DNA from: a candidate division FCPU426 bacterium
Lineage (GTDB): Bacteria > Oederibacteriota > Muellerivitia > Muellerivitales > Muellerivitaceae
Assembly: GCA_030041545.1 (NCBI GenBank)
Contig: JASHNQ010000017.1
Span: forward strand, 1-33,241
Length of the DNA stretch: 33,241 nt
Reading direction: 5' to 3'
The position numbers and the translations under genes are program-made. The notes beneath the pieces were generated by a model. The model had not been told where the DNA came from and made no database searches. It saw only the letters and a program-made list of their open reading frames with translations. Below are positions 5,254 through 32,995 of this stretch, piece by piece. The first letter of the stretch is position 1, and the number at the start of each line of letters is the position of its first letter.

Positions 5254-6255
5254 TTACTTGAGCCGCACGCGGTACTTCTTCGGCAGCAACCGGAAGGAAA
5301 GAGCCGGGGGCCCTAGCAGGCTGTTCACGCGGATACGTTGGAATTGATAATTCCGGAAGATGGGGGAAGTGGGCCGGAACCAATTCTTTTTCTTGAACCC
5401 CTCCCGGTAAGACTGGGGCGGCACGCCGTAAACTTCCTTGAACACCCTCGAAAAATGGAAGGGATTCTCGAACCCGATCCGGTTCGCCACTTCCTTGATC
5501 GTCAGTTGGCTTCTCTCCAGCAGGCCCCCCCCATATTCCACTTTCAACAGCCGAGCGCATTCCATGGGGCCTATCCGCAGGTCCTTTTTAAACAGGCGGC
5601 ACAGGTTTTGGGGGGACATGAAAGCCGCGCGGGCCATGTCGGCCAATTTAATCTTCCGCAAAGGCTGATCCCGCACCTTATCCCTCAACCAATAAAGCGC
5701 CCTCTCCACCCCGTCTGAAAGGCCCGGTTCGACCTCCAGTCCGGCCGGTTCCGGGTTTCCGGCATAAAGGTAATACCTCAGCATCAGTTCCACCGTGGGG
5801 CCCAAAACCGGCTGATATTGCCCGCGGCTCAAGGGGGAAAAAGCGAGGACTTGGCGGAACAAATGGAAAAAAAGGTTCTCCGGCGGCAGGCGCCGGTAAA
5901 GGGGCCACCGGTAAGGCGAAGGGGGAGGCCACCCCTTGGGCGGGTCGCCCAGGTGGAAATGGATGAAGGAATGGATCGACCGCTCCGTCCGGGAATAGCG
6001 GTAGGAATCGGTCACGGCCGGGGGCACTAAGAACACCGTGTCCGGCGAGGCCTTGACCGTCCGGGAACCGATTTGGGCGGTCATGGTTCCCGACCTCATC
6101 CAAATAAATTCGTGGCTCCATTGCCGGCGCGGACCGAAGGTCTTGCCGGGAGGTTCGACATTGGTGCCGGCCGCGACGACCGTTACCCGCGGGGAGGATG
6201 GAAAATTCGGTTTTTTAATTATAGATATTCCTTTGATAATTTCAGATATGTCCAT
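5254..6255 (-). CDS. AraC/XylS-family transcriptional regulator
   Basis: 333 residues. The N-terminal half looks like the cupin-type sensor of AraC proteins: WSHEFIWMRSGTMTAQIGSR, then PDTVFLVPPAVTDSY and a SFIHFHLG strand. The C-terminal half has the two helix-turn-helix units: LADMARAAFMSPQNLCRLFK at about 206-225, and LTIKEVANRIGFENPFHFSR followed by VFKEVYGVPPQSYRE. The signature GFENPFHFSRVFKEVYGVPP is very close to the family consensus. About 40 extra basic residues follow the usual end. The effector is unknown. It is divergent from the aspartic-protease-like cluster beginning at 6317 and upstream of gcvH in the same direction, so either could be its target. No clear ribosome site precedes the ATG at 6255. 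Confidence 0.93.
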   Translation of the reverse strand: MDISEIIKGISIIKKPNFPSSPRVTVVAAGTNVEPPGKTFGPRRQWSHEFIWMRSGTMTAQIGSRTVKASPDTVFLVPPAVTDSYRYSRTERSIHSFIHFHLGDPPKGWPPPSPYRWPLYRRLPPENLFFHLFRQVLAFSPLSRGQYQPVLGPTVELMLRYYLYAGNPEPAGLEVEPGLSDGVERALYWLRDKVRDQPLRKIKLADMARAAFMSPQNLCRLFKKDLRIGPMECARLLKVEYGGGLLERSQLTIKEVANRIGFENPFHFSRVFKEVYGVPPQSYREGFKKKNWFRPTSPIFRNYQFQRIRVNSLLGPPALSFRLLPKKYRVRLK

Positions 6256-6316: not shown

Positions 6317-7318
6317 ATGCCGTGGCGTTTAGCCGTGAATCGGAAAAAAATCTTCTATTTTTCTCTTTGGACAATGGTGGCCCAGATGCCCGCAACCGCC
6401 TACCTCCAGGCCGCCTCGGACCCCATTCCGAATGACGCAAAAGAAGTGAATTATTACCTCAGTACGCTTTACGGCGATCACCTTGCCGTGCCCGCTGAAT
6501 TTACGGTTAAAAGCCAGACCTACAAAGGGTGGCTGATCTGGGATACGGGGATCCGGCCCAATAACTGCGACATCCAAATCACGGCGGATTTCTTCCACCG
6601 GCTGGGGTTCCAGCCTAAGAACCAAAGAACGGCCCTGTCGAGCCTTGCCGTTGGTGGTCCCTCCTCCGCGCAGGCGGTTCAATTCAACTACATCGCCAAT
6701 GACGGGATCAGTGATGTGGGGCCCATCCCCATCCATTTGAAATTGGGAAGCCTGGAAGTGGGAAATTTACGGCTCTATACCGACCCCGTCATCGACCGGT
6801 CCTCCAGCGATTGGTACAACCGATTTGACCCGCGTTTCAAGGACGGCCCGGGGGACCGGGTCTTGGGCAACGTGACGTTCCCCTTCATGCAAAAATATTT
6901 GATCAGCATCGATTATCAAAACAAAAAAATTTATTTTCGGCCTCTCGACGCCGAACGCCGCCTTTTTTTCACCCACCCGCCCCTGGCCACCATCCAATGT
7001 GTCATCACCGATGGGATATTCTGCCCCATTGACCTCAACGGCCGGCCGGAGGGTTATGGGCTCTTTGACACCGGGGACCCCCAGGACCTCTTCGATTCCC
7101 CCGTTATCCGCCTTTCGGGGTGGCCTTTTAAAAGCCTCCGGTTGGGCCAGTATGACGTGCTGAAACAGGAACCCGGTTACAAGTGCTCTTTTCGCAAGAA
7201 GATCGGTTTTTTCTCTAGGACTAAATTGGATTTCGCGGCCATCATCGGCAACGACACCTTCCAGGGGCATTTCATTACCATCGACCCGAAGTTGCAAAAA
7301 ATTTACGTTGAAAGATGA
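6317..7318 (+). CDS. Exported two-lobed aspartic-protease-like protein, paralogue 1 (both D-T-G sites intact)
   Basis: 333 residues starting with a signal-like segment (KKIFYFSLWTMVAQMPATA); GGGGG lies 7 bases before the ATG. Retropepsin-type signatures appear twice. Lobe 1 has KGWLIWDTGIRP (Asp76), later VLGNVTFPFMQKYLISIDYQ and NKKIYF. Lobe 2 has DLNGRPEGYGLFDTGD (Asp251), later AAIIGNDTFQGHFITIDP and QKIYVER. Each lobe therefore carries the D-T-G and the hydrophobic-hydrophobic-Gly element of aspartic proteases, joined by an RPLDAERRLFF linker found in all four paralogues. It lacks the extra N-terminal module of paralogues 2 and 3. The reading frame extends upstream to 6038 inside the araC-type gene, but 6317 gives the signal peptide. 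Proteolysis is inferred; substrate unknown. First gene of the tandem array. Confidence 0.85.
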   Translation: MPWRLAVNRKKIFYFSLWTMVAQMPATAYLQAASDPIPNDAKEVNYYLSTLYGDHLAVPAEFTVKSQTYKGWLIWDTGIRPNNCDIQITADFFHRLGFQPKNQRTALSSLAVGGPSSAQAVQFNYIANDGISDVGPIPIHLKLGSLEVGNLRLYTDPVIDRSSSDWYNRFDPRFKDGPGDRVLGNVTFPFMQKYLISIDYQNKKIYFRPLDAERRLFFTHPPLATIQCVITDGIFCPIDLNGRPEGYGLFDTGDPQDLFDSPVIRLSGWPFKSLRLGQYDVLKQEPGYKCSFRKKIGFFSRTKLDFAAIIGNDTFQGHFITIDPKLQKIYVER

Positions 7319-7405
7319 GGACCAGTCCAAACCCACAATGAGGAGGAATGGTTTGAAGAATGATTTGTTATACGGAAGTTCTCTTTTCGACCAGGGATTA
7401 TTGCG

Positions 7406-9133
7406 ATGAAAAGGATGGTCCGGCTGTTCATGCTCCTGCTGGCAACCGGCTGCTGGGCCGAGGTGAACCGGCGACAAGAACTGGTAAAAGCGGAAATTTA
7501 CGGAAACGGCGCCATCTCGGTGGAAGAGGGCCAGGAGACCTTGGCCGAAATCGCTCCAAGGATCTTCCCCATGGGATGGGAACTCCAAAACCTGTCGGTC
7601 GTTAATGGGGCCGACGGCCGAAAAACAATCAGCGGAAATTTCCTGGCGCCCGGAAATGGGGCGGTTATCACCTTGACCGGTTCCATAGCCGAAAGCCAAG
7701 GCGGACTGGACGTCGAATACGATTTTGTGGCTTCAGCGGCCGTCACGGTGGAGGAAGTTGCTTCCTTGATAGAACTTCCGGTTGAATGCTGGCGATCGGC
7801 CAAATATCAACTGGGCCTGCACCGTGGGACGGTCACCCAATCGTTGATCTCCTCATATACCAGTGGCCAAGAATGTTTAAGCGTTATTGGCCCGTCTTCG
7901 GACGGATCAAACCTTTTTTTAGAAATCGACGGGGATAACCGGCTCGCCACTTCCTTCATCGACAACCGCGGTGAGGGGGAGCCAAGCGTCGAATTAAGGC
8001 TGCTTTCGGATAAAACGCTTGACCCGCGGGTTTTGGTCCCGGAGGGGAAAAAAACGATCCGGTTTAAAATTCGTTGTAACCGGATGATCCAAGTAAACCC
8101 GGTGGTCCAGGATGCGAAAAAATCCCTAACCAACCAGCCGCAAAGTTCCAAGGATGATTTTTCCGGGAAAGCCATTCAAAAAGTTGGGGAAAACCAACCG
8201 GCTGGGGGTGTGTCCGGAATAATCGACACGGCCGTCCCCAAGGACGCGGTGGCGGTCCCTTTTCACGCCGAGAAATCCTGGGGCGACTATCAAATATTCT
8301 TGCCCGTTGAAATGGACGTGGCGGATAGGAAATTCGAGGGATGGGTGCAGTTGGATACCAACGTGAAGCCGTATAACATCGACCTCAATATCAGCCAGGA
8401 CCTATTGAACCAATTCCATTTGAGGATTTTACGGGTAAGAAAAGGATACAGCGGCGGCATCGATACCAATAACGGCGATTTCACTTCGGAATTGAATCCC
8501 TATAACGTTATATCGAACGACGATGGGAGTGATGCGGGGAAAGTGGACGTGGAGGTCAAGATCGGGCAGTTGAGAATTCAAAACGCGGTTTTATGTACGG
8601 ACCAATATTTGGAACGCACTTATAAATCCTTCAATGCCTATCCTTTCTTTAAAAATAAAAGGTTGATAGGCGTTTTCCCGCTGTCTTTGTTTAAAAAATA
8701 TTTAACAAGCATCGATTATCCCCATCAAATGATTTACTTCCGGCCCCTGGACTCCGAACGGAGGGCTTTCTTTAGTTCCGGGGAAAAGGAAACGATGGAT
8801 TGTGACTTCACGGATGACGGCGCGCTCATTCCAATTTCCATCAATGGGAAAGTAAGCGGTTCGGGTTTTTTTGACACGGGGGCCAGCATGAACCTCATGG
8901 ATATCTCCCAGGTGGATATTTCCAATTTGCCTTTCACTTCCTATAAGTTGGGCGGTTACGACGTTTTAAAAAACAATCCCGGTTATTACCCTGAGTTTTT
9001 TAAGGCTTTTACCGGGGGTTGGAAACCAAAGAAAATATTCGCGCTGGTGGGGAACGACATTTTTGAGAATATGTTCATCACCGCCGACCCAAGATTCAAC
9101 AAAATTTACATCGAAAGAATAGACGCGAGATGA
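7406..9133 (+). CDS. Exported aspartic-protease-like protein with extra N-terminal module, paralogue 2 (one D-T-G, one D-T-N)
   Basis: 575 residues. A hydrophobic start (RLFMLLLATGCWA) is a signal peptide and may be a lipoprotein signal with Cys14 (LATGC). Residues about 25-235 form a beta-rich module that recurs in paralogue 3 and in the beta-lactamase-like gene at 17783; landmarks are a GW near the start, VIGPSSDGSNLFLEI and IRFKIRCNRM. A low-complexity linker follows. The two-lobed region then has FEGWVQLDTNVKP (Asp317, with Asn in place of Gly) and VSGSGFFDTGASMNLMD (Asp490, a textbook retropepsin DTGA). The elements SLFKKYLTSIDYP and LVGNDIFENMFITADP follow their lobes. AGGGA lies 9 bases before the ATG. 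The Asn change may weaken a pepsin-like pair of aspartates. The gap to paralogue 1 is 87 bases; it overlaps paralogue 3. Confidence 0.85.
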   Translation: MKRMVRLFMLLLATGCWAEVNRRQELVKAEIYGNGAISVEEGQETLAEIAPRIFPMGWELQNLSVVNGADGRKTISGNFLAPGNGAVITLTGSIAESQGGLDVEYDFVASAAVTVEEVASLIELPVECWRSAKYQLGLHRGTVTQSLISSYTSGQECLSVIGPSSDGSNLFLEIDGDNRLATSFIDNRGEGEPSVELRLLSDKTLDPRVLVPEGKKTIRFKIRCNRMIQVNPVVQDAKKSLTNQPQSSKDDFSGKAIQKVGENQPAGGVSGIIDTAVPKDAVAVPFHAEKSWGDYQIFLPVEMDVADRKFEGWVQLDTNVKPYNIDLNISQDLLNQFHLRILRVRKGYSGGIDTNNGDFTSELNPYNVISNDDGSDAGKVDVEVKIGQLRIQNAVLCTDQYLERTYKSFNAYPFFKNKRLIGVFPLSLFKKYLTSIDYPHQMIYFRPLDSERRAFFSSGEKETMDCDFTDDGALIPISINGKVSGSGFFDTGASMNLMDISQVDISNLPFTSYKLGGYDVLKNNPGYYPEFFKAFTGGWKPKKIFALVGNDIFENMFITADPRFNKIYIERIDAR

Positions 9134-10881
9134 CCCATCCCATCACCCGCCGAATCAGGCTGTGGGTATTCCTGGCTTTCTCAGCGCTTTTTCCCGGCGT
9201 CAACGGGGCCGGGGCCCAAGCCGGTCCTGAGCCGTTGCGGGTTCAGGCCTACGACGGGGGTTCCATCTCCATCGAGGACGCCGAGGGAGCTGTGGCTCTC
9301 ATCGAGCCCAAGGTGTTCATCAAGCGTAACGGAATGCCTGTTCCTGTCCCAAAGATCAGGGAACTCAACGGGGATCACATGTTTTTTTTTGAGGGGGATG
9401 GTACGTCAAGCCCTGGCGACTTAAAGGGCTCCTTATTGTCACTCGATGGGGACAAGGTTGAATTAAAAGGCTCGGTGACGCCGGTTAAAAACGGCTTAAA
9501 AATTACTTATTGGATCACGCCCTCGGCGCCGGTGACGGTGGAACGGATTTGCGCTTTGGTGGACTTGGACCGCGCGGATTGGGCCGGCGCCACGGGGTTC
9601 ATCGGGGCTACCCCAGTGACCTTGTCCTCCAGCGCCCTTCAAACCCCGCCGGAATTGCGAAAACCATTGATTCATCTCGGGCCCTCCCTCGATGGGCTTT
9701 GGCTCACTATCAAAGGGAGTTCCGTCCTCGGTTCGGATTTCCAGGATGAGCTTCCTTGGGGCCGGGTGTTGGAACTGGGGCTGGATGCCGCCAAGGTTCC
9801 TTCCGGCGAAACCTTGTGGCAGGCCGGCGTGACCAAAAAATTGGAGTTAACCCTGTCGTTCAACCGCCCCCTCCAACTGGCGTCCCAAACACGGGAAACG
9901 TCCCTTTTCCACCGCCTGAAGGCGGAAATGGCCTGTGGGTATCCGGTACCTCCGGATTCCCAAGTCATTGGGGAAATCGCGGGCTGCGCTGGTTCCGGCT
10001 TGGTCGTTGTTGAAATCATCCCAGCCTGGTTCAAGGTGGAGGATGTGGCAAGGCTTCCCGTCCAGGATAAATTTTTCTACGGCTTTTTGGTTTGGGATAC
10101 GGGGGATTTAAGGGGGGATATCGAATGGACCTTCATGAATCAGGCCCCCCGAAAAATCAATATCGTCACCATTACCAACCAATTCCTGGAAAAGTTGGGG
10201 TTTAAACCGCAAAACGACGGGCGTTTTGAGGTGGGTGCGGCTGGACAAGGCAAGCAAAACGGAACGCTCATTGCGGATACCCCGGCCAGTTCGGTGGGCC
10301 CCGTGAAGGTCCAAGTGAGGGTCGAGGACCTGGCGTATGACAATATGGGTCTAATTGCCGGTAATTTGAGTATTTCCGGGCCTCATTCCGGGAAATTTAA
10401 TTTCGGCGCATTCCCTTATGAACTCATGAAAAATTACATCTTCAGCATGGATTACAAAAATCAAATAATCTACTTGAGGCCCTTGGATTCGGCGCGGCGC
10501 ACCTTTTTCGCGGCAAAACCCCTGGCGGAAATCAGGGAAATTTCCAAGGGAGACGGGGTCCTCTACTTCCCCCTGACCGTCAATGGCCGGTTCCAAGGTA
10601 TCGCCTCCCTCGACACGGGCCATGACTTGACGAGCCTGAACAAAAAGAAGATCAACCTGGACGGCAAACCCGTCACTTCCTTCAAGATAGGCGATTACGA
10701 TCTGATGGGCGCCTATCCGGGTTTTAATCCCCCTTTGGCCGATTATTCGGAATTGGCCCGGACCACCGATAATCCGAATGCGGAGGATATCCTTAGCTGG
10801 CTTGGAAACGACGCTTTTCAAAACCTCTTCGTCACCTTCGACCCGAAGAACAACAAAATTTACATCGAGAGAAATAATTAA
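9130..10881 (+). CDS. Exported aspartic-protease-like protein with extra N-terminal module, paralogue 3 (both D-T-G sites intact)
   Basis: 583 residues; its ATG overlaps the previous stop (ATGA). A Sec signal (LWVFLAFSALFPGVNGAGAQ) is followed by the shared module at about residues 35-255, with the landmarks IEPKVFIK, GLKITYWITP, IHLGPSLDGLWLTI and LELTLSFNRPL. The two-lobed region has FYGFLVWDTGDLRGD (Asp323) and FQGIASLDTGHDLTSLN (Asp495). The matching elements are FPYELMKNYIFSMDYK and LSWLGNDAFQNLFVTFDP, and the linker is RPLDSARRTFF. It is the most complete member: module plus two apparently intact catalytic motifs. Between module and lobe 1 lie residues with no recognised domain. Peptidase activity is inferred from motif spacing; a binding role is possible. 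Confidence 0.85.
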   Translation: MTHPITRRIRLWVFLAFSALFPGVNGAGAQAGPEPLRVQAYDGGSISIEDAEGAVALIEPKVFIKRNGMPVPVPKIRELNGDHMFFFEGDGTSSPGDLKGSLLSLDGDKVELKGSVTPVKNGLKITYWITPSAPVTVERICALVDLDRADWAGATGFIGATPVTLSSSALQTPPELRKPLIHLGPSLDGLWLTIKGSSVLGSDFQDELPWGRVLELGLDAAKVPSGETLWQAGVTKKLELTLSFNRPLQLASQTRETSLFHRLKAEMACGYPVPPDSQVIGEIAGCAGSGLVVVEIIPAWFKVEDVARLPVQDKFFYGFLVWDTGDLRGDIEWTFMNQAPRKINIVTITNQFLEKLGFKPQNDGRFEVGAAGQGKQNGTLIADTPASSVGPVKVQVRVEDLAYDNMGLIAGNLSISGPHSGKFNFGAFPYELMKNYIFSMDYKNQIIYLRPLDSARRTFFAAKPLAEIREISKGDGVLYFPLTVNGRFQGIASLDTGHDLTSLNKKKINLDGKPVTSFKIGDYDLMGAYPGFNPPLADYSELARTTDNPNAEDILSWLGNDAFQNLFVTFDPKNNKIYIERNN

Positions 10882-11897
10882 TGGCGGGAACTTGCTGGTG
10901 GCCCAAAACCTGGTTTTTGTTTTTAGGAATGCTGGCTTTCACGGCGCTGCGCCCCGGGAACGCCGCAGGACAAGCCGCGGCCACCCCTTCGTCTACGGCC
11001 GGACCCAGCCCAATCCAGTCGGCTTACGCCCTGCCCCCGGATGCCCAGGTGATCGACGGCGATTTCAGCGACGGGGATATCCTCATCAAAGCCAGGTTCA
11101 AAATCCACGATTTGGCGAGGATCAACGCCAAAGATGTTACCCAAGATGGCTGGCTCCGATGGGGCATCAGCACCGAATTTCCCGGTTGGCCGACCCAAAA
11201 GTTGGTGGGGATTACGGCCGATTTGGCCGAGAGGCTGGGACTGAACTTCGAACTCGCCAAAAAGTGGGGAATGGAAAATGGGATCTGGATTTCGGACGAC
11301 CACAACAGCGAGATGGGACCCGTGCGAATCCAAATCGACCTGGGCCATGGCGTTACCTGGATGGATCTTCCGATGGTTGCCACGGAACATTTTGACGAAA
11401 GTTTCAAGGACATGAACCAAACGAGACAAGGCGACGACCGGGTCGTCGGGCTTCTTCCCTATGGTTTGTTGGCCCAATACTTGTTCAGCCTGGATTATCA
11501 AAACCAAAAAATCTACCTGAGGCCCTTGGATGCCTCCCGCCGCACCTTTTTCGATAAGAAACCCATTAAGGAGGCTTCGTATAAGGGGTCGGATGATATT
11601 TACCTGCCTGTGACGGTGAACCAAAAGGTCAACGGCTATGCCATTTTGACCACGGAATCTGATTCGACCTACGCGGAAACGCCCGGAAATGAGCCGGTGA
11701 CTTCCTACCGCATCGGCGGTTTTGATTTCATGAAATATGATCCTGGATTAAAACCCTCCGTGAGCAGCATCGACATGCAAGGCTGGGTCCTCCCCCAAGG
11801 CGTCACGGTTGTTGCATGGCTTGAAAATGATTTCCTGAGGGATTTCTTCGTGACGGTCGACCCTAGGAACCAAAAAATTTATTTTGAGAAACCATGA
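10881..11897 (+). CDS. Exported aspartic-protease-like paralogue 4, both catalytic motifs lost
   Basis: 338 residues; the ATG overlaps the preceding TAA (TAATG). A signal peptide (WFLFLGMLAFTALRPGNAA) precedes a short Ala/Pro/Ser stretch. The fold markers of its three neighbours remain: LAERLGLNF, YGLLAQYLFSLDYQNQKIYL, RPLDASRRTFF, VTSYRIGGFDFMKYDPG and VAWLENDFLRDFFVTVDP. Both active-site positions have changed, however: W-D-T-G in lobe 1 is WGIS (DGWLRWGISTEF) and L-D-T-G in lobe 2 is LTTE (GYAILTTESDS). The open frame and well-kept remainder argue against a decaying pseudogene. A binding partner, chaperone or inhibitor-like pseudoenzyme is more likely. Like paralogue 1 it lacks the N-terminal module. 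It is the last gene before the hairpin at 11962-12000. Confidence 0.82.
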   Translation: MAGTCWWPKTWFLFLGMLAFTALRPGNAAGQAAATPSSTAGPSPIQSAYALPPDAQVIDGDFSDGDILIKARFKIHDLARINAKDVTQDGWLRWGISTEFPGWPTQKLVGITADLAERLGLNFELAKKWGMENGIWISDDHNSEMGPVRIQIDLGHGVTWMDLPMVATEHFDESFKDMNQTRQGDDRVVGLLPYGLLAQYLFSLDYQNQKIYLRPLDASRRTFFDKKPIKEASYKGSDDIYLPVTVNQKVNGYAILTTESDSTYAETPGNEPVTSYRIGGFDFMKYDPGLKPSVSSIDMQGWVLPQGVTVVAWLENDFLRDFFVTVDPRNQKIYFEKP

Positions 11898-17782: not shown

Positions 17783-19852
17783 ATGAAAAAACTTTTATCT
17801 CAAGCCGTTCTATGTTTCTTGCTGGCGGCAGGCCTCAGCCCCGGCTTTTTCTGGGGCTCAACCCAGGAAGACCAGGCCGACCCCCTCACCGTCCAGATCC
17901 AGGAAGCGGGGAAGGTGCGTATCTTCGACGGTCAAAAGGAAATCGGGGATTTCCAGCCCCAAATTTTCCTCAAGGGTTGGAACATTGTCTTCTTCCAAGC
18001 GCCGGGCCCAGGTGAAAAAGCCGACGCCGTGGCCATGCTTCCCGACGGCAGCAAGGTTCTCTATAAGGTTTCGGTAAAAGCCGGCCCTTCCGGGTTGAAA
18101 GTCCACGGCGTCATGACACCCTTGAAGGATATCCAAGTTTTAAGCGGCCGGGTAACGGGATATTTCATGCCGTACCGGGATTGGGACGGCGACACCTATG
18201 ACCTGGGCAGGCGGCGGGCCGCCCTCCCCCACGAGGTGGTTACCAGTGACGGCGGCGTCATCGCCCACGATACCGCACCCCTTGTCCTGGGGCCTTCCCA
18301 CGCCAACGGCCTGACGATGAAATTCACCTCGAAACTCCCGGTCACCTTGCAGGACGTGCGCCAGTGGACGCCGGGTGTTTCGGTCTTTTTCACCAATGAC
18401 AAACCCGGCGGCCAGGTCTGGGATTGGAAGGTCGGTGAAAAGCGGGCCTTTGATTTCACCCTGGCTTTCAACCGTCCATTCGTCGTAAAGGCAGTGACCC
18501 CCCCTAAGGACTTGGAAGTCTTGCGGGCCCAAATGGACCAACTGGTCAAGCCCTATATCGACGGCGGCTGGTGCCCCGGCTTTGCCGTCGGCGTTTTATA
18601 CAAGGGGAAAAAATGGGTCGGCGGTTATGGAACCACTTCCCTGGCGGGAGGCAAAACTCCCGATGGAGACACCGAATACGAGATCGGCTCCATCACCAAG
18701 CTCTTCACCAAGCTGCTCTTTTCCGACATGGTGCACCAAGGAAAAATGGGCCTGGACGACAAGGCCCAGGCTTATCTGCCCAAAGGCGTAACCATGCCTT
18801 CCAAGGACGGCAAGGATATCACCTTGCTCATGCTCTCCAACCACACCTCCCAGCTTCCCCACGACCCGGACGACGTTTCGTGGGGCAACCCCGCCAATAA
18901 TGGGGCGGGGAACTACAGCCTGGACCGCCTTTATGCCTACCTCAACCGGTATAAGCTCACCGCCGATCCCGGCGGCGCTTTCCAATACAGTAATACCGGC
19001 GTGGCCCTCCTGGGCAACTTTGTGGCCCAAAAGAAGGGCATTTCGTGGGCCGATTACCTGCAGCAACGGGTTCTGGACCCGGTGGGGCTGAAGGATACCG
19101 GCGTCACCTGGACCGCGGACGAGCTTTCCCGGGTAGCCCAGGGTCATGCCAGCGATATGGATACCATTCCGTTATGGAAATGGGACAAGTCCGTTTTCAT
19201 GCCGGCTGGAGCCCTGCATTCGACGGTCAACGACCTGTTGAAATTGGCCAACGCCTCCCTGGACGGCAAGGGCCCCTTGTCGGACATCGCTTTCGACGAC
19301 ACCGCCCAGAAGCTGGACTGGGGAGCCCGGGTGGCCCATGAAGGCGGGACCGGGGGGTTCAACACCTCCTTTTTCGTGGACCGGACCCAAAAAGCCGTGG
19401 TGGTGATCCTGGGCAACATCGGTGACGGCGTTACCGGCGAGGTGGCTTACAAGATCCAACAACTCCTCAAAGGTTACCTGCTGGCCGGCGCCGGCCTGCC
19501 CGTCTTCACCCAATTGCCGGCCTCCGAACTTCAGCAATACACCGGAACCTACCACGTGGTCAAAACGCCGAAGGGCTGGCCCATGCCCAAGGAGGATGAC
19601 ACCCTCTTTTTGAAGGACGGGGGCCTGGTGGCCAAGGCCAACAAGGATTGGAACCTGGACATCAAGATCGAACCCCTCGCCAACGGCGATTTTTACGACC
19701 GGCCTCAAAGGGCGGAGATTTCTTTCACCAAGGACGGCCAGGGAACGGTCACGGGCTTTACCTTGCCCTTGTATCCCGATTATGTGGCCGAGAAGGTGGG
19801 TTACCAGGCCCCCAAGGCCAAGATCGATGACGGCATTCCCCCGCCGCCTTGA
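17783..19852 (+). CDS. Exported serine beta-lactamase/esterase-like protein with the shared N-terminal module
   Basis: 689 residues with a signal peptide (LLSQAVLCFLLAAGLSPGFF) and AAGGAG before the ATG. Residues about 34-240 repeat the module of the aspartic-protease-like paralogues: LVLGPSHANGLTMKF and FDFTLAFNRPF line up with IHLGPSLDGLWLTI and LELTLSFNRPL. Next comes a class C beta-lactamase/DD-peptidase-type domain. It has S-x-x-K in GSITKLF (Ser303, Lys306), Y-S-N in QYSNTGVALLGN (Tyr402) and HEGGTGGF (519-526) at the third-motif position. A C-terminal lipocalin-like segment begins LQQYTGTYHV. Proteins of this kind are often esterases or peptidases rather than true lactamases. It is in the ABC operon, so its substrate may relate to what the transporter moves. 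Confidence 0.92.
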   Translation: MKKLLSQAVLCFLLAAGLSPGFFWGSTQEDQADPLTVQIQEAGKVRIFDGQKEIGDFQPQIFLKGWNIVFFQAPGPGEKADAVAMLPDGSKVLYKVSVKAGPSGLKVHGVMTPLKDIQVLSGRVTGYFMPYRDWDGDTYDLGRRRAALPHEVVTSDGGVIAHDTAPLVLGPSHANGLTMKFTSKLPVTLQDVRQWTPGVSVFFTNDKPGGQVWDWKVGEKRAFDFTLAFNRPFVVKAVTPPKDLEVLRAQMDQLVKPYIDGGWCPGFAVGVLYKGKKWVGGYGTTSLAGGKTPDGDTEYEIGSITKLFTKLLFSDMVHQGKMGLDDKAQAYLPKGVTMPSKDGKDITLLMLSNHTSQLPHDPDDVSWGNPANNGAGNYSLDRLYAYLNRYKLTADPGGAFQYSNTGVALLGNFVAQKKGISWADYLQQRVLDPVGLKDTGVTWTADELSRVAQGHASDMDTIPLWKWDKSVFMPAGALHSTVNDLLKLANASLDGKGPLSDIAFDDTAQKLDWGARVAHEGGTGGFNTSFFVDRTQKAVVVILGNIGDGVTGEVAYKIQQLLKGYLLAGAGLPVFTQLPASELQQYTGTYHVVKTPKGWPMPKEDDTLFLKDGGLVAKANKDWNLDIKIEPLANGDFYDRPQRAEISFTKDGQGTVTGFTLPLYPDYVAEKVGYQAPKAKIDDGIPPPP

Positions 19853-22926: not shown

Positions 22927-23763
22927 ATGGATCTTTTCGAATATGAGGATGTAGCCCAAAGTTATGAGCTCTGGACCGATCCCCAGCCCAGGGATTTGAT
23001 CGACTTCCACCTGGGATATGCCAAGGAATACGGCCAAGGCGGCATCCTGGACATCGCTTGTGGCACCGGGGCCGTGACCCTACCCCTCCTTCAGGCCGGA
23101 TATGACGTCACGGGCTTGGACCTTTCCCAGCCTATGCTGGACATCCTGAAAGGCAAACTCGTCCAGCTCTCTGAAAGCCAACGGGCCAAGTGCCGCCTCG
23201 TCCAAGCCGACATGCGGAACTTCCGGTTGGGCCAAACCTTCCCCCTCGCCTTCATTGCCCGCAGCGGCTTCATCCACCTGCCCACGCCCCAGGACCAGCG
23301 GAAAACCCTGTTAAGCATCCATTCCCATCTTTCTGAAAAAGGAATCCTGGTCTTCAACATCTTCGACCCCAACTACGAAATGATTTTCAAGGACCTAAAG
23401 GGCAAGGCCTCCGGCCCCTTCCCGCGCTTTACCTACACCAATGCCAAAAGCAACCAGGAAAAGGTCTTTAACGATTCGGTCCACGACCCGGCAACACAGT
23501 TGGTGGAAGTGCTTTGGACGTGGGAAGAATACGACCCTACGGGAAAACTTGTCTCCCGCCGGGAAAGGACCCTGCGGTGCCGCTGGACCTTCCGCCAGGA
23601 AATGGAATATCTGCTGGAACTAACTGGCTTCAAGGTCCTGAACCTCTACGGAGGCTATGGAAAGGAAGCTTTCAGCCCCGGCATTAAGCATTCCATATGG
23701 GTTTGCCAAAAAAATGAACCTGCTAGGAGCAAGGAGGACACTGGATGGCCCAAGATTGCTTGA
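22927..23763 (+). CDS. Class I SAM-dependent methyltransferase
   Basis: 278 residues. Motif I is ILDIACGTGAVTLPLLQAGY, followed by VTGLDLSQPMLDI (acidic residue binding the SAM ribose) and RLVQADMRNF. Those are the standard signatures of the Methyltransf_25/UbiE-like group. The C-terminal half (RTLRCRWTFRQEMEYLLELT, GFKVLNLYGGY) is typical of small-molecule methyltransferases. The substrate cannot be told from sequence. AGGAGG lies 7 bases before the ATG. Its last 19 bases overlap the start of the HIT-family gene, and it heads a five-gene run (methyltransferase, HIT, GNAT, HAD, Nudix) with almost no gaps. Confidence 0.93.
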   Translation: MDLFEYEDVAQSYELWTDPQPRDLIDFHLGYAKEYGQGGILDIACGTGAVTLPLLQAGYDVTGLDLSQPMLDILKGKLVQLSESQRAKCRLVQADMRNFRLGQTFPLAFIARSGFIHLPTPQDQRKTLLSIHSHLSEKGILVFNIFDPNYEMIFKDLKGKASGPFPRFTYTNAKSNQEKVFNDSVHDPATQLVEVLWTWEEYDPTGKLVSRRERTLRCRWTFRQEMEYLLELTGFKVLNLYGGYGKEAFSPGIKHSIWVCQKNEPARSKEDTGWPKIA

Positions 23764-26514: not shown

Positions 26515-27132
26515 ATGCCGACTTCAAAAGACATCGTCCGCCGGGGTTATAACCGGATTTCGAGGGACTACAAGGACGACCAAGGGGCGGGGCCGGACGC
26601 AAAATATCACCGATATTGGCTACGGGAAGTTGACAAACGCCTGGAACCAGGCAGCCATATCCTTGAACTGGGTTGCGGCATGGGCGTGCCGGTGGCGCGG
26701 TTCTTTAGCCGGAAACATTCTTATTGGGGAGTGGATATTTCCGACGTCCAAATCCAGCGGGCGAGAAAACTGGTCCCCCGCGCCCGTTTTCAACGCGCCG
26801 ATATGACCCGGTTGAAGTTTAACCCTTCCTCTTTTGCCGCCGTCCTGGCTTTCTATTCCATCATCCACTTGCCCCTGCGCGAGCAAAAACCCCTTTTCAA
26901 AAGGATATTCCGTTGGCTGAAATCCGGCGGAATCTTCCTTTCCATCCTCGGCTGGGGCCGCTGGACTGGCCAGGAAAAAAACTGGTTCGGAGCGCCGATG
27001 TTTTGGAGCCACGTCGATGAGAAAACCTACCATCGGTGGCTCGGGGAAATCGGCTTCAAAGTCATGCGAAAGAGATTGATCCGGGAAGGCAAAGCTGGGC
27101 ACTATCAATTTCTTTGTATGAGACCAAAATGA
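26515..27132 (+). CDS. Class I SAM-dependent methyltransferase
   Basis: 205 residues. Motif I is HILELGCGMGVPVARFFSRK, then SYWGVDISDVQIQRARKLV and RFQRADMTRL. The post-motif AVLAFYSIIHLPLREQKPLF resembles Methyltransf_11/25 members. It is different in detail from the other three methyltransferases in the window. The start is 2 bases after the PIN toxin stop, and its stop overlaps the next GNAT (ATGA). Substrate unknown. Confidence 0.93.
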   Translation: MPTSKDIVRRGYNRISRDYKDDQGAGPDAKYHRYWLREVDKRLEPGSHILELGCGMGVPVARFFSRKHSYWGVDISDVQIQRARKLVPRARFQRADMTRLKFNPSSFAAVLAFYSIIHLPLREQKPLFKRIFRWLKSGGIFLSILGWGRWTGQEKNWFGAPMFWSHVDEKTYHRWLGEIGFKVMRKRLIREGKAGHYQFLCMRPK

Positions 27133-27671: not shown

Positions 27672-29813
27672 ATGTTAAAGCCGTCTTCTAACGAGAAAAG
27701 AACGGCCTGTAAAATCTTGTTGGGTTTGATTTTAGCGGTCGGGTTTTCCTGGGCCCAACCCGCCTCCGTTCCTTCCACCCAAACCCCGGCGGAAATCCTT
27801 TGGGATTCTTGGGGAGTGCCCCATATTTACGCCCCTACCGACACTTCCCTGTTCAAGGCCTTTGGTTGGGCCCAAATGCGCACCCACGGAAAGCTCTTGC
27901 TCCATCTTTACGCTTTGGCCCGGGGAAGGGGCGCGGAATTCTATGGGCCCGATGACCTGGCTTCGGACAGGTCGGTGCGTCTTATGGGCCTCTATTCCAT
28001 CGCGCAAAAATGGTATGCCCAACAGACCCCGGAATTCCGGGCTGATTTGGACGCTTTCGCCGAGGGCATCAACCTTTACGCCAAGGACCACCGCCAGGAA
28101 CTGGATCCCGGCGCCCTAAAAGTCCTGCCGGTGGATGGGGTGGACGTGGTGGCCCATGGCATTCGCTGGATATGGCGTTTCATGGCCGACCACGCCAATA
28201 TCAGGTCCTCCCTGCCCAGCGACGATCTTCCGGGTTCGAATGGCTGGGCCATTGGGCCCTCCCATTCCGCCGATGGCCATGCCATGCTCCTGGCCAATCC
28301 CCACGTCCCCTGGGATGGGGACCGGATGTTTTTGGAGGCCCAACTTAGCGGTCCCGATTACCAGGCCTATGGCGCCACCTGTCCAGGGTTTCCCGTCCTG
28401 TTGATCGCCTTCAACGAAACCCTGGGTTGGACCAACACCTCGAACACCATCAACCCCTGCACCTTGTACGCTCTCATACCGGACGGCCAAGGCTATCGGT
28501 TTGAAGGCCGCCATCGCGCCTTCGCCCAGCGCATCGAAAAAATCAAAATCCTCCAATCCGGCGGCACCTTCAAGACCGAGGATTTCAAGGTGCGGGCCTC
28601 CCTCCAGGGCCCGGTCTTCGAAAATCAGGGAAAGCTTTTTGCCCTTCGGAATGTCGGCCTGCAATGCGGCTCCTTTGCTGGCGGACTGGAAGAGTCTTGG
28701 AAGATGGGCCAGGCCCATAACCTGAAAGAATTCCAAGCGGCCTTGCGGATGATGCAACATCCCTTCGGCAACGTGATCTATGCCGACGCCGAAGGCAATA
28801 TTTTTCTCTTCGACGGCGGCCTGGTTCCAAAGAAAGGCGGGGGTGACACGGGTTTTTGGAGCCGTCCCGTGCCCGGGGACACCGCCTCGGCCCTTTGGAC
28901 CGATTATTGGGATTATGACTCCCTGCCCCACGCCCTAGACCCGCCCTCGGGCTGGGTCCAAAACTCCAACAGCGCGCCTTGGTTCATGACCCTGCCTTTC
29001 CTGGATTGGCGCCGTTATTCCGAGGACATGGCCGACCCCACGGCCTTTCCTAGCTTCCGGGAACAACGGGGCCTGCGGATGCTCACGGAGAGCTCCAAAA
29101 TTTCATTCGACCAGATGGTCGCGGACAAGTTTTCCACCCGCAGCGAACTGGCCGACCGTGTGGTGGGCGACTTGGTCAAGGCCGCCCGCGCCCGGGGCGG
29201 GGAAACCCTGCGGGCGGCCGCCGACGTCCTTTCCGCCTGGGACCGCCAAACCGAGGCTAACAGCCGGGGGGCGGTCCTGTTCGAGGCCTGGGCCAATAAA
29301 GCCTTTGCCTCCGAATGGCCCTTGTCGGTCCCCTTTGACCCCGGCCATTTCCTGGAAACACCCCGTGGCTTCGCCTATCCCGGCCGGGAGGCCCAATTCC
29401 TGGAGGACGCCGCCAAGGAGGTTGTGACCAAATACGGCCGTATGGACGTTGCCTGGGGGGAGGTCCACCGGTACAAGCTCGGTAACTTCGATTTTCCCGG
29501 CAACGAGGGTTCGCCATCCTTGGGGATTTTCAGGTCCGTTTGGTATTGGAAACCGGCGGGCCCGAATCGCACGGCGGCCGCGGGCGGCGACAGCTTTATC
29601 GCGGCGGTTGAGTTTTCGAAGCCCTTGAAGGCCCAGGTGCTCCTGCCCTACGGCAATACCAGTGACCCGGACTCGCCCCATTACGGCGACCAGTTGGAAT
29701 TGGACGCGCAAAAAAAGCTCCGTCCCGCTTGGTTTTACCGCAAGGACGTGGAGGCCCATACGGTGGAGAGGTCGTTGATCCCAGCCGATGGAATAAGGGT
29801 TGAAAAACCTTAA
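27672..29813 (+). CDS. Penicillin acylase-family amidase (exported Ntn hydrolase)
   Basis: 713 residues with a signal peptide (CKILLGLILAVGFSWAQPA). The N-terminal part becomes the alpha chain (ILWDSWGVPHIYAPTDTSLF, FGWAQMRTHGKLLLH). The cleavage and nucleophile site is Gly-Ser in LPGSNGWAIGPSHSADGHAM, with Ser189 as the first residue of the mature beta chain. ANPHVPW (His) and GWTNTSNTIN (Asn region) match other active-site elements. Homologues include acyl-homoserine-lactone acylases and aculeacin acylase as well as penicillin amidases, so the substrate is open. GGAGG lies 7 bases before the ATG. It is cotranscribed with the upstream GNAT gene and ends convergently on the RelE toxin gene. 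Confidence 0.95.
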   Translation: MLKPSSNEKRTACKILLGLILAVGFSWAQPASVPSTQTPAEILWDSWGVPHIYAPTDTSLFKAFGWAQMRTHGKLLLHLYALARGRGAEFYGPDDLASDRSVRLMGLYSIAQKWYAQQTPEFRADLDAFAEGINLYAKDHRQELDPGALKVLPVDGVDVVAHGIRWIWRFMADHANIRSSLPSDDLPGSNGWAIGPSHSADGHAMLLANPHVPWDGDRMFLEAQLSGPDYQAYGATCPGFPVLLIAFNETLGWTNTSNTINPCTLYALIPDGQGYRFEGRHRAFAQRIEKIKILQSGGTFKTEDFKVRASLQGPVFENQGKLFALRNVGLQCGSFAGGLEESWKMGQAHNLKEFQAALRMMQHPFGNVIYADAEGNIFLFDGGLVPKKGGGDTGFWSRPVPGDTASALWTDYWDYDSLPHALDPPSGWVQNSNSAPWFMTLPFLDWRRYSEDMADPTAFPSFREQRGLRMLTESSKISFDQMVADKFSTRSELADRVVGDLVKAARARGGETLRAAADVLSAWDRQTEANSRGAVLFEAWANKAFASEWPLSVPFDPGHFLETPRGFAYPGREAQFLEDAAKEVVTKYGRMDVAWGEVHRYKLGNFDFPGNEGSPSLGIFRSVWYWKPAGPNRTAAAGGDSFIAAVEFSKPLKAQVLLPYGNTSDPDSPHYGDQLELDAQKKLRPAWFYRKDVEAHTVERSLIPADGIRVEKP

Positions 29814-30671: not shown

Positions 30672-30739
30672 AAACTGTACCACTACGGGAAATCGGCCCA
30701 TGGAAAATGGGGCTAAGCATAAGACCGAGTGAGAAACCT

Positions 30740-31468
30740 ATGGATACCCGAAAAGACGCCTACGGCCAGGAGCTTTGGGCCCACTTCAGGGGCAAAAGGT
30801 CTTACGAACTCATCGAACGCGAGGATGGTTTTTTCGCCTTATCCGGCGGTTCATCCGCTTATTTCCAGGAGTTTAAGAATTGGCCGGTTTACCAAAAAAA
30901 GGCTATCGCTTATGCCAGGGGGAGGGTCTTGGACATTGGCGCCGGCGCGGGCAGGGTCTCGCTCCACCTTCAAAAGAAGGGTTTAAAGGTCACTGCCATG
31001 GATAATTCACCCTTAGCGGCCAAGGTTTGCAAACGCCGGGGAATAAAAAATATCCTAGTGCTTCCCATCGAAAAGTTGGGCAAGCTTGGAAAGGTCCGTT
31101 TTGACACCGTTGTCATGTACGGGAATAATTTCGGTTTGTTCGGAAGTTTCAAAAAAGCAAAACTACTGTTGAGAAAACTCCATCGACTAACGACTCCAGA
31201 GGGGATAATCATCGCCGAGAGCAATGACCCTTACAAGACCGGCAACCCACTGCATCTCTCCTATCAAAAAATGAATCGAAAAAGGGAGAGGATGTCCGGC
31301 CAGTTGAGACTGAGAGTTTGCTTCCGGCGGTATGTGGGCCCTTGGTTTGACTACCTGATCGTATCCAAAAGGGAAATGAAGGAAATCATCCGGGGAACGG
31401 GCTGGAAAGTCGAACATTTCGTGGATTCCGGGAAATCGCCCTATATCGCCATTCTCATCAAGGAGTAG
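30740..31468 (+). CDS. Class I SAM-dependent methyltransferase
   Basis: 242 residues. Motif I is RVLDIGAGAGRVSLHLQKKG with LKVTAMDNSPLAAKVCK after it; the post-motif region RFDTVVMYGNNFGLFGS and GIIIAESNDPYKTGNP are consistent with the Methyltransf_25 fold. The N-terminal 55 residues are unlike the other methyltransferases here. The ATG at 30740 is weakly led (GAG only); an in-frame ATG at 30707 lies in the repeat tail and would add 11 residues. It heads a three-gene group with the next methyltransferase and peptidase E. Substrate unknown. Confidence 0.9.
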   Translation: MDTRKDAYGQELWAHFRGKRSYELIEREDGFFALSGGSSAYFQEFKNWPVYQKKAIAYARGRVLDIGAGAGRVSLHLQKKGLKVTAMDNSPLAAKVCKRRGIKNILVLPIEKLGKLGKVRFDTVVMYGNNFGLFGSFKKAKLLLRKLHRLTTPEGIIIAESNDPYKTGNPLHLSYQKMNRKRERMSGQLRLRVCFRRYVGPWFDYLIVSKREMKEIIRGTGWKVEHFVDSGKSPYIAILIKE

Positions 31469-31510: not shown

Positions 31511-32260
31511 ATGATTTCAAAAAGCCTCATGGACCAATGGAAAAAGGACGAAAAGGCCCCTTTTTCAGGATGGGATTTTTCCTATTTGAAGGGCCGGTGG
31601 GAAGAGGAACAACCGGGCTGGAACTACGAAGCTTTGGCAAGACGCCTGGTGAAGGAATCAAAATCGGTCCTGGACATGGCCACGGGTGGGGGGGAGATAT
31701 TTTCTTCTTTCGCTCCGTTCCAAGGCCGTGCGGTGGGCATCGAGGGCTACCGGCCGAATGTCGCGGTGGCACGCAAAAGATTGCGGCCTTTGGGCGTCAG
31801 CGTCATCGAGGCTTCGGATTCCGGCGTCCTCCCCTTTAAAAATGGGGAATTTGATTTAGTCCTCAACCGCCACGGGGCTTTCATGCCGTCGGAGATAGCC
31901 AGGATTTTGAAAAGGAGAGGCTTATTCTTGACCCAGCAAGTCAGCGGCGATTCTTTAACGGATTTGATGTCTTTTTTCGGAGTCAAACCCCAGTGGCCTG
32001 ATAATGTATTGAAAAAGGTGAAGCGGAAAGTTTTGGAAGCAGGGCTCAAAATAAAAAAAGCCGATGAATGGGCGGGTCAAACAAAATTTTTCGATTTGGG
32101 CGCCCTTGTTTATTTCCTCAAAGCGGTTCCTTGGATTGTGGATGGCTTTAGTATCCGGGCTTACATGCACGAGCTTATGAAACTCCAGAAAATACTCGAA
32201 AAGGAAAAAGTTCTGCGGTTCAAAGCCAAACGTTTTTTCATTTTAGTCGAAAAACCATAA
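31511..32260 (+). CDS. SAM-dependent methyltransferase-like protein
   Basis: 249 residues. Motif I is degenerate (SVLDMATGGGEIFSSFAPFQ, with T-G-G-G in place of G-x-G-x-G), but the ribose-binding acidic residue (AVGIEGYRPNVAVAR) and the VIEASDSGVLPFKNGEFDLV region follow the usual order. Small proteins of this type with DMATGGGE motifs are annotated as methyltransferases. It could bind SAM normally, since only the glycine spacing differs. It starts 42 bases after the previous gene and ends with its stop adjoining the peptidase E region. Substrate unknown. Confidence 0.87.
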   Translation: MISKSLMDQWKKDEKAPFSGWDFSYLKGRWEEEQPGWNYEALARRLVKESKSVLDMATGGGEIFSSFAPFQGRAVGIEGYRPNVAVARKRLRPLGVSVIEASDSGVLPFKNGEFDLVLNRHGAFMPSEIARILKRRGLFLTQQVSGDSLTDLMSFFGVKPQWPDNVLKKVKRKVLEAGLKIKKADEWAGQTKFFDLGALVYFLKAVPWIVDGFSIRAYMHELMKLQKILEKEKVLRFKAKRFFILVEKP

Positions 32261-32275
32261 GTGGAAGAAAACCGC

Positions 32276-32995
32276 ATGAAGAAAACAATAAGCAAAATTC
32301 AAAAACAAATCATCTGCATCGGCGGGAGCGGGTTTGCCAAGGCATCGGAAAAACCCCTTTTGGAAACCTATATCCTGGGGCAATCGGGCCGGAAAAAGCC
32401 GAAGATCTGTTTTGTGGGCACCGCCAGCGGCGATTCGGAAGGCTACCAGCGGATGTTCTACTCCGCTTTCAAGAAACTGGATTGTGTCCCTTCGCACCTA
32501 TCGCTCTTTAAGCCTCCCGTGGGCAGCCTGGAAAAATACGCCTTGTCCAAGGATGTTATCTACGTAGGCGGCGGCAACACCCGCAACCTGCTGGCCCTCT
32601 GGAAGCTTTGGGGCCTCGACCGGATCATGAAAAAAGCCTTTGACAAAGGAATCGTTCTTTCCGGCACCAGCGCGGGCTCCATCTGTTGGTTCGAGGAAGG
32701 AGTAACCGATTCTTGGCCCGGCCGCCTAAATTCCTTGGAGTGCCTGGGATTCCTGAAAGGCAGCAACTGTCCCCACTACGACAGCGAAAAGAACCGGCGG
32801 CCTTCCTACCACCGGCTGCTGGCCCAAAGGAAAATCGGACCCGGTTACGCCGCTGATGACGGCGTGGCGATCCATTACATCAACGGTTCAATCGTTCGCT
32901 TTGTCTCTTCCAGACCGAACGCCCGGGCCTATAAGGTCGGCCTTCAAAAAGGAAAAGTAGTAGAAGAAGCTATTGTCCCGGATTATTTGGGCTAA
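32276..32995 (+). CDS. Peptidase E-like serine peptidase (family S51)
   Basis: 239 residues, close to PepE (about 230). The nucleophile elbow is VLSGTSAGSICWF with Ser132; YVGGGNTRNLLALWK is the conserved S51 strand-loop; NCPHYDSE supplies a His at the expected distance. Family members are cytoplasmic dipeptidases that cleave Asp-X, or cyanophycinase relatives. I use ATG 32276 with GGAAG 9 bases upstream; an in-frame GTG at 32261, immediately after the previous stop, is an alternative adding 5 residues. Last gene of the three-gene group with two methyltransferases. The acid residue of the triad is not assigned. Confidence 0.92.
   Translation: MKKTISKIQKQIICIGGSGFAKASEKPLLETYILGQSGRKKPKICFVGTASGDSEGYQRMFYSAFKKLDCVPSHLSLFKPPVGSLEKYALSKDVIYVGGGNTRNLLALWKLWGLDRIMKKAFDKGIVLSGTSAGSICWFEEGVTDSWPGRLNSLECLGFLKGSNCPHYDSEKNRRPSYHRLLAQRKIGPGYAADDGVAIHYINGSIVRFVSSRPNARAYKVGLQKGKVVEEAIVPDYLG

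Follow-up and report, generated by a model that had tools for sequence, protein, structure and literature searches.

A cluster of four exported, two-lobed paralogs

Four head-to-tail open reading frames, here named P1 to P4, form a tight run on the forward strand of the window, that is, the whole stretch of 33,241 nucleotides that was analysed (Table 1). Start and stop codons overlap at positions 9130-9133 (P2/P3) and at 10881 (P3/P4), and only 88 nt separate P1 from P2; the genes therefore probably constitute one operon. All four have a coding-type GC3 (0.60-0.68). Over the shared region of approximately 300 amino acids, P2, P3 and P4 are 38, 32 and 31% identical to P1, respectively, and a search of the own genome with P1 retrieved the three other paralogs with E values from 3e-57 to 3e-27. 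A further match in the same genome, at C30 (E 0.027), was dismissed as chance; it is an unrelated FAD-type protein, MnmG/GidA-like by sequence. Each of the four proteins has a hydrophobic N-terminus and would be located outside the cytoplasm, and P2, which additionally carries the lipobox LATGC, is a probable lipoprotein. The divergent AraC-type regulator could control the cluster. Elsewhere in the window four separate small methyltransferase-type genes lie within 10 kb (22927-23763, 26515-27132, 30707-31468 and 31511-32260), accompanied by a penicillin-amidase-family protein (27672-29813) and a peptidase S51 (32261-32995).

Table 1. Features of the P1-P4 cluster and its upstream neighbor
Feature	Position in window	Strand	Basis
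AraC-type regulator with a weak match to cupin, 61 bp from P1 and divergently oriented	5254..6255	-	
P1, 333 aa, Sec-type signal and two lobes, DTG/DTG	6317..7318	+	
P1 lobe 1 DTG (D76)	6542..6550	+	
P1 inter-lobe linker RPLDAERRLFF	6938..6970	+	
P1 lobe 2 DTG (D251)	7067..7075	+	
P2, 575 aa, lipobox LATGC, N-terminal module and two lobes, DTN/DTG	7406..9133	+	
P2 N-terminal module (signal and ~230 aa domain)	7406..8167	+	profile search
P2 lobe 1 motif DTN (D317)	8354..8362	+	
P2 linker RPLDSERRAFF	8741..8773	+	
P2 lobe 2 DTG (D490)	8873..8881	+	
P3, 583 aa, signal, N-terminal module and two lobes, DTG/DTG	9130..10881	+	
P3 N-terminal module	9130..9930	+	
P3 lobe 1 DTG (D323)	10096..10104	+	
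P3 linker RPLDSARRTFF	10477..10509	+	
P3 lobe 2 DTG (D495)	10612..10620	+	
P4, 338 aa, signal and two lobes, both catalytic Asp lost (putative pseudo-protease)	10881..11897	+	
P4 lobe 1 site, GIS replacing DTG	11163..11171	+	alignment
P4 linker RPLDASRRTFF	11520..11552	+	
P4 lobe 2 site, TTE replacing DTG	11649..11657	+	alignment

The family is present in two of the 45 genomes of the phylum, and L007, from another genus of the same organism family, is the single homolog. In the alignment of the five members, the first active-site position is occupied by DTG in P1, P3 and L007, DTN in P2 and GIS in P4, and the second by DTG in P1, P2 and P3, DSG in L007 and TTE in P4. The full D-T/S-G pair is present in P1, P3 and L007, P2 has a modified first motif and P4 has none. 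The residue following DTG is irregular (I, D, D, H, T, N) instead of S, T or A. All four paralogs share the invariant inter-lobe linker IY[FL]RPLDxxRRxFF. P4 is an intact open reading frame in which signal, linker and tail are conserved, and it therefore looks like a maintained pseudo-protease, not a decaying gene; as an aspartic protease it is almost certainly inactive. Since the sites of both P2 and P4 are changed, the cluster appears to tolerate loss of catalysis.

These results modify the first-pass annotation, made from the sequence alone, in several respects. Its tandem array of four exported proteins agrees with the four adjacent forward-strand reading frames, the identities between paralogs and the hydrophobic N-termini, and the RPLD-x-x-RR-x-FF linker, which it considered common to all four, is indeed invariant. 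The D-T-G-type sites that it placed in both halves of each protein are found in P1 and P3, but not in P2 (DTN/DTG) and P4 (GIS/TTE). The view that all four are aspartic proteases is not supported, as P4 is without both Asp residues and the first motif of P2 is changed.

Predicted fold, internal repeat and psi-loops

The AlphaFold2 model of P1, calculated with the three paralogs in the alignment, has a pLDDT of 72 and a pTM of 0.74. When the model was compared with the PDB using Foldseek, 50 of the 50 matches listed were bilobed structures of the pepsin family (E values between 2.6e-7 and 7e-6, probability 1.00); pepsins, plasmepsins, renin and cathepsin D ranked first among them, and the alignments span both lobes. 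The model thus suggests that each lobe belongs to the right fold class, but because the TM-scores are only 0.38-0.46 (about 0.42) with an rmsd of about 9 A, the relative placement of the lobes is uncertain. The full-length model of P2 was poor (pLDDT 50), and pepsins still came first in Foldseek (E 8e-5). Matches of that model outside the lobes, to the YidC periplasmic domain and galactose mutarotase, were weak (E about 0.6) and were not used. Structure prediction with a fold search, proposed in the first-pass annotation as a check, thus put pepsin-family bilobed structures first for P1 and also for the poor P2 model. Its description of two-lobed, pepsin-like proteins gains support both from this and from the profile homology of the lobes to retropepsin-like Asp_protease_2 domains (see below).

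The same annotation had recognised two similar halves in each protein. A match was indeed obtained when lobe 1 was compared with lobe 2 as profiles (P = 1e-3; all of 60 shuffles scored lower), but it is confined to 28 C-terminal columns (G..F....ID....KIY), and taken alone the match within the P1-P4 family is modest evidence for a repeat. The two lobes of the bilobed relatives described below match at a probability of 98.5%, and it is through these relatives that the internal repeat becomes convincing.

The psi-loops were compared with a fixed pattern, a hydrophobic-Gly element 12 residues before the Asp/Asn of the tail. By this pattern the element is present in lobe 1 of 19 and in lobe 2 of 18 of the 20 bilobed relatives. 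Lobe 2 of the window family has it in four of the five members, with Glu for Gly in P4. In lobe 1 the canonical hydrophobic-hydrophobic-Gly is found at -12 in none of the five; relative to the Asp of IDYxxxxIY, this position is occupied by Pro in four members and by Thr in P1, and the hydrophobic-Gly (hhG) is shifted three residues earlier, to -15. A rearranged lobe 1 psi-loop beside a canonical lobe 2 psi-loop, as judged by this pattern, is a new feature. Psi-loops are unlike in the two lobes of pepsin and alike in retropepsins, and the indispensable Asp is that of the C-lobe (PMC11313796). The parallel to pepsin is suggestive and is not evidence of descent.

Relatives of the lobes and of the N-terminal module

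No Pfam or NCBIfam model passes for P1-P4. The best PF13650 score, that of P2, is 12.8 bits against a cut-off of 24.3, and the family is therefore filed as a divergent relative, not as a member of PF13650. Single-sequence searches of the PDB gave no match, and the four-paralog profile gave a weak one to ApRick (E 1.1). The key lead was provided by a scan of genome contigs, in which one locus was found, L011 of a Flavobacteriaceae MAG. It encodes an Asp_protease_2 lobe, a further lobe that Pfam does not detect and a PDZ domain, and the second lobe is followed by IYFKPLRRHQRPFY, which is equivalent to the RPLD-RR-FF linker. The linker of the window family corresponds to the conserved tail of a Bacteroidota-type lobe (IYFKPLRRHQRPFY, IHLTPNSHYRDLF).

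The five-member window family was then aligned by hhalign with 12 bilobed proteins, seven from Bacteroidota and five others, including L022 from the same organism family as the window. The match (probability 98.1, E 1e-13, 251 columns) is colinear over both lobes with both DTG sites in register. Its score of 104.7 compares with 19.6 for the best of 60 column shuffles and 15.4 for the reversed profile, and the result is unchanged without L022; single lobes match the bilobed set with probabilities of 92.8 and 94.5. A blind run of the window-family profile over 395 Bacteroidota genomes yielded nine matches (E 4.7e-6 to 5.4e-4), all of them two-lobed Asp_protease_2 proteins and L011 among them. 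The other eight have PF13650, with 139-153 aa between their two D[TS]G sites, and both lobes pass Pfam in seven. Searched against the PDB without its PDZ tail (with the tail, PDZ matches swamp the result), the Bacteroidota profile matched 9iy9 over both lobes (residues 165-418, E 4e-15); weaker matches (1e-5 to 1e-2) were to retropepsins, Ddi1, ApRick and pepsins. In the structure 9iy9, an 'Exported protein' of 420 aa, two retropepsin-like lobes likewise come after an N-terminal part; it was reached only through the Bacteroidota profile and the likeness covers the lobes. A literature search yielded no paper on 9iy9 or on the bacterial bilobed proteins as a group, and relatives of the family looked for on plasmids and viral contigs were not found either.

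Both the fold class of P1-P4 and their homology to bilobed clan AA proteins are, then, very likely. Judged by profile comparison, P1-P4 are a far-diverged branch of a bilobed bacterial kind that is already known, poorly studied and common in Bacteroidota. Like the Bacteroidota two-lobed PF13650 proteins (L011, L039-L044, L074-L082), they are exported and have two colinear retropepsin-like lobes; most have a pair of D[TS]G sites, and in both groups a Pro/Asn..R..F element comes after the IDY/FDY..KIYL tail. The Bacteroidota proteins often have a C-terminal PDZ domain, which the window family lacks. In addition, the window family differs from them in being invisible to PF13650, in its shifted lobe 1 psi-loop, in the optional N-terminal module, in losses of catalytic residues and in its four copies. 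The first-pass annotation knew of no fused-retropepsin family with this linker. The branch had indeed gone unrecognised; bilobed proteins are, however, widespread in Bacteroidota, 9iy9 has been solved and the linker is a lobe tail. Two side observations concern the same domain. L022 (769-2316), from another genus of the window's organism family, is a membrane-anchored two-lobed retropepsin-like protein fused with a TPM domain (two D-T-G, PF13650 and PF04536), and two genomes of one family of the phylum (G008 and G009; L012-L037) have an unusual number of Asp_protease_2 matches, ten and seven, mostly short single-lobe open reading frames.

P2, P3 and L007 share an N-terminal domain of approximately 230 aa that is separate from the lobes. 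It has eight occurrences in the own genome and is present in seven of the 45 genomes of the phylum, either alone or joined to beta-lactamase-family serine hydrolases, alpha/beta hydrolases and long Pfam-less proteins. In the window it is also found at 17807-18499 (+), within the open reading frame of a beta-lactamase-family serine hydrolase (17783-19852). The module itself has no Pfam match, and a profile search of the PDB was empty. Every partner with a Pfam match is a hydrolase, which is mild evidence that P2 and P3 act as hydrolases too. The attachment of the module to serine hydrolases as well is new, as is the occurrence of a seemingly conserved pseudo-protease in the cluster. Three proteins of 900-1000 aa (L090:7-2982, L091:433-3171 and L092:212-3217) consist of the module and a remainder without Pfam match and may represent an undescribed hydrolase class. 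The 466-aa protein L087:347-1747 combines the module with a C-terminal part without Pfam match.

Origin, function and significance

Pepsins of family A1, including the bacterial shewasins, also have two lobes per chain, one Asp in each and unequal psi-loops (PMC2761423, PMC4814920). A1 structures top the Foldseek ranking and eukaryotic A1 enzymes are exported, as the window proteins are, so that a true pepsin homolog, acquired for instance from a eukaryote, was considered. However, no A1 structure in the PDB was matched by P1 or by the four-paralog profile up to E 10, and the sequence profiles point instead to bacterial Asp_protease_2 proteins. An A1 origin was rejected because sequence links to A1 are absent, and we regard it as highly improbable. 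Bacterial A1 homologs, moreover, are without signal peptides (PMC2761423), whereas the window proteins have them. ApRick/APRc (PMC4140852) and the Rlo proteins (PMC12239564) have the same clan AA lobe, but one per chain. Retropepsins of family A2 likewise have one lobe per chain and act as dimers; each P1-P4 chain has two.

The fusion itself could have taken place within the phylum, from two single-lobed retropepsin-like domains and without homology to the Bacteroidota fusion. Single-lobed Asp_protease_2 proteins are available there, up to ten per genome, and lobe 1 is not closer to lobe 1 of the Bacteroidota proteins (88.1) than to their lobe 2 (89.0). Lobe 2, on the other hand, matches lobe 2 slightly better, both lobes match the single-lobed proteins of the phylum less (24.8 and 51.8) than they match Bacteroidota lobes, and they are too diverged from each other for a recent duplication. 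An independent fusion thus seems unlikely. Catalytically dead pepsin-fold proteins exist as rigid binding scaffolds, and the whole family might similarly have ceased to be proteolytic, its lobes binding peptides or other ligands and the DTG motifs of P1, P3 and L007 being structural remnants. P4 keeps linker, tail and signal without a catalytic Asp, P2 has DTN, the psi-loop Gly of lobe 1 is replaced by Pro or Thr in all five members, and the residue after DTG is irregular, all of which fits a scaffold. Yet P1, P3 and L007 are mutually only about 30% identical and have still kept both Asp-Thr/Ser-Gly triplets, four of the five members have a canonical psi-loop in lobe 2, and the N-terminal module sits elsewhere on hydrolases wherever a Pfam match exists; a purely binding role for the family is accordingly rather doubtful.

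The cluster is probably best explained as a set of exported, single-chain, bilobed aspartic-peptidase-like proteins of clan AA fold that diverged from tandem Asp_protease_2 proteins and arose by lineage-specific expansion. In P1, P3 and L007 each lobe would supply one Asp to a pepsin-style active site, so that peptides could be cut outside the cytoplasm without dimerisation. That P1 and P3 do act as single-chain aspartic peptidases is somewhat to reasonably likely. P2 would be a lipoprotein with a degraded lobe 1 motif, for which the Plasmodium HAP, pepsin-like and bilobed with Asp32 of its N-lobe site replaced by His (PMC11313796), is a precedent, although HAP is a eukaryotic A1 protein and P2 instead keeps the Asp and changes the Gly. 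P4 would be a conserved pseudo-protease that may act as a partner in binding or regulation, and the accessory module of P2 and P3 probably serves targeting, surface attachment or substrate binding.

Bacterial homologs with two lobes are directly relevant to the unsettled matter of how a single-lobed ancestor gave rise to two-lobed pepsin (PMC2761423). Many bilobed proteins of the retropepsin-like type occur in Bacteroidota, and the P1-P4 family adds a case in which the lobes diverge from each other and copies lose catalytic residues. A family missed by Pfam and NCBIfam is now supplied, and so is an N-terminal module found repeatedly on exported hydrolases within a single phylum. As a speculation of rather low probability, the once-alike retropepsin-type lobes may have differentiated, with rearrangement of the lobe 1 psi-loop, in parallel to pepsin and independently of it, and active, half-degraded and pseudo-protease copies may be co-expressed and cooperate extracellularly. 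If this is true, the differentiation of the lobes would mirror, in a living family, the origin proposed for pepsin.
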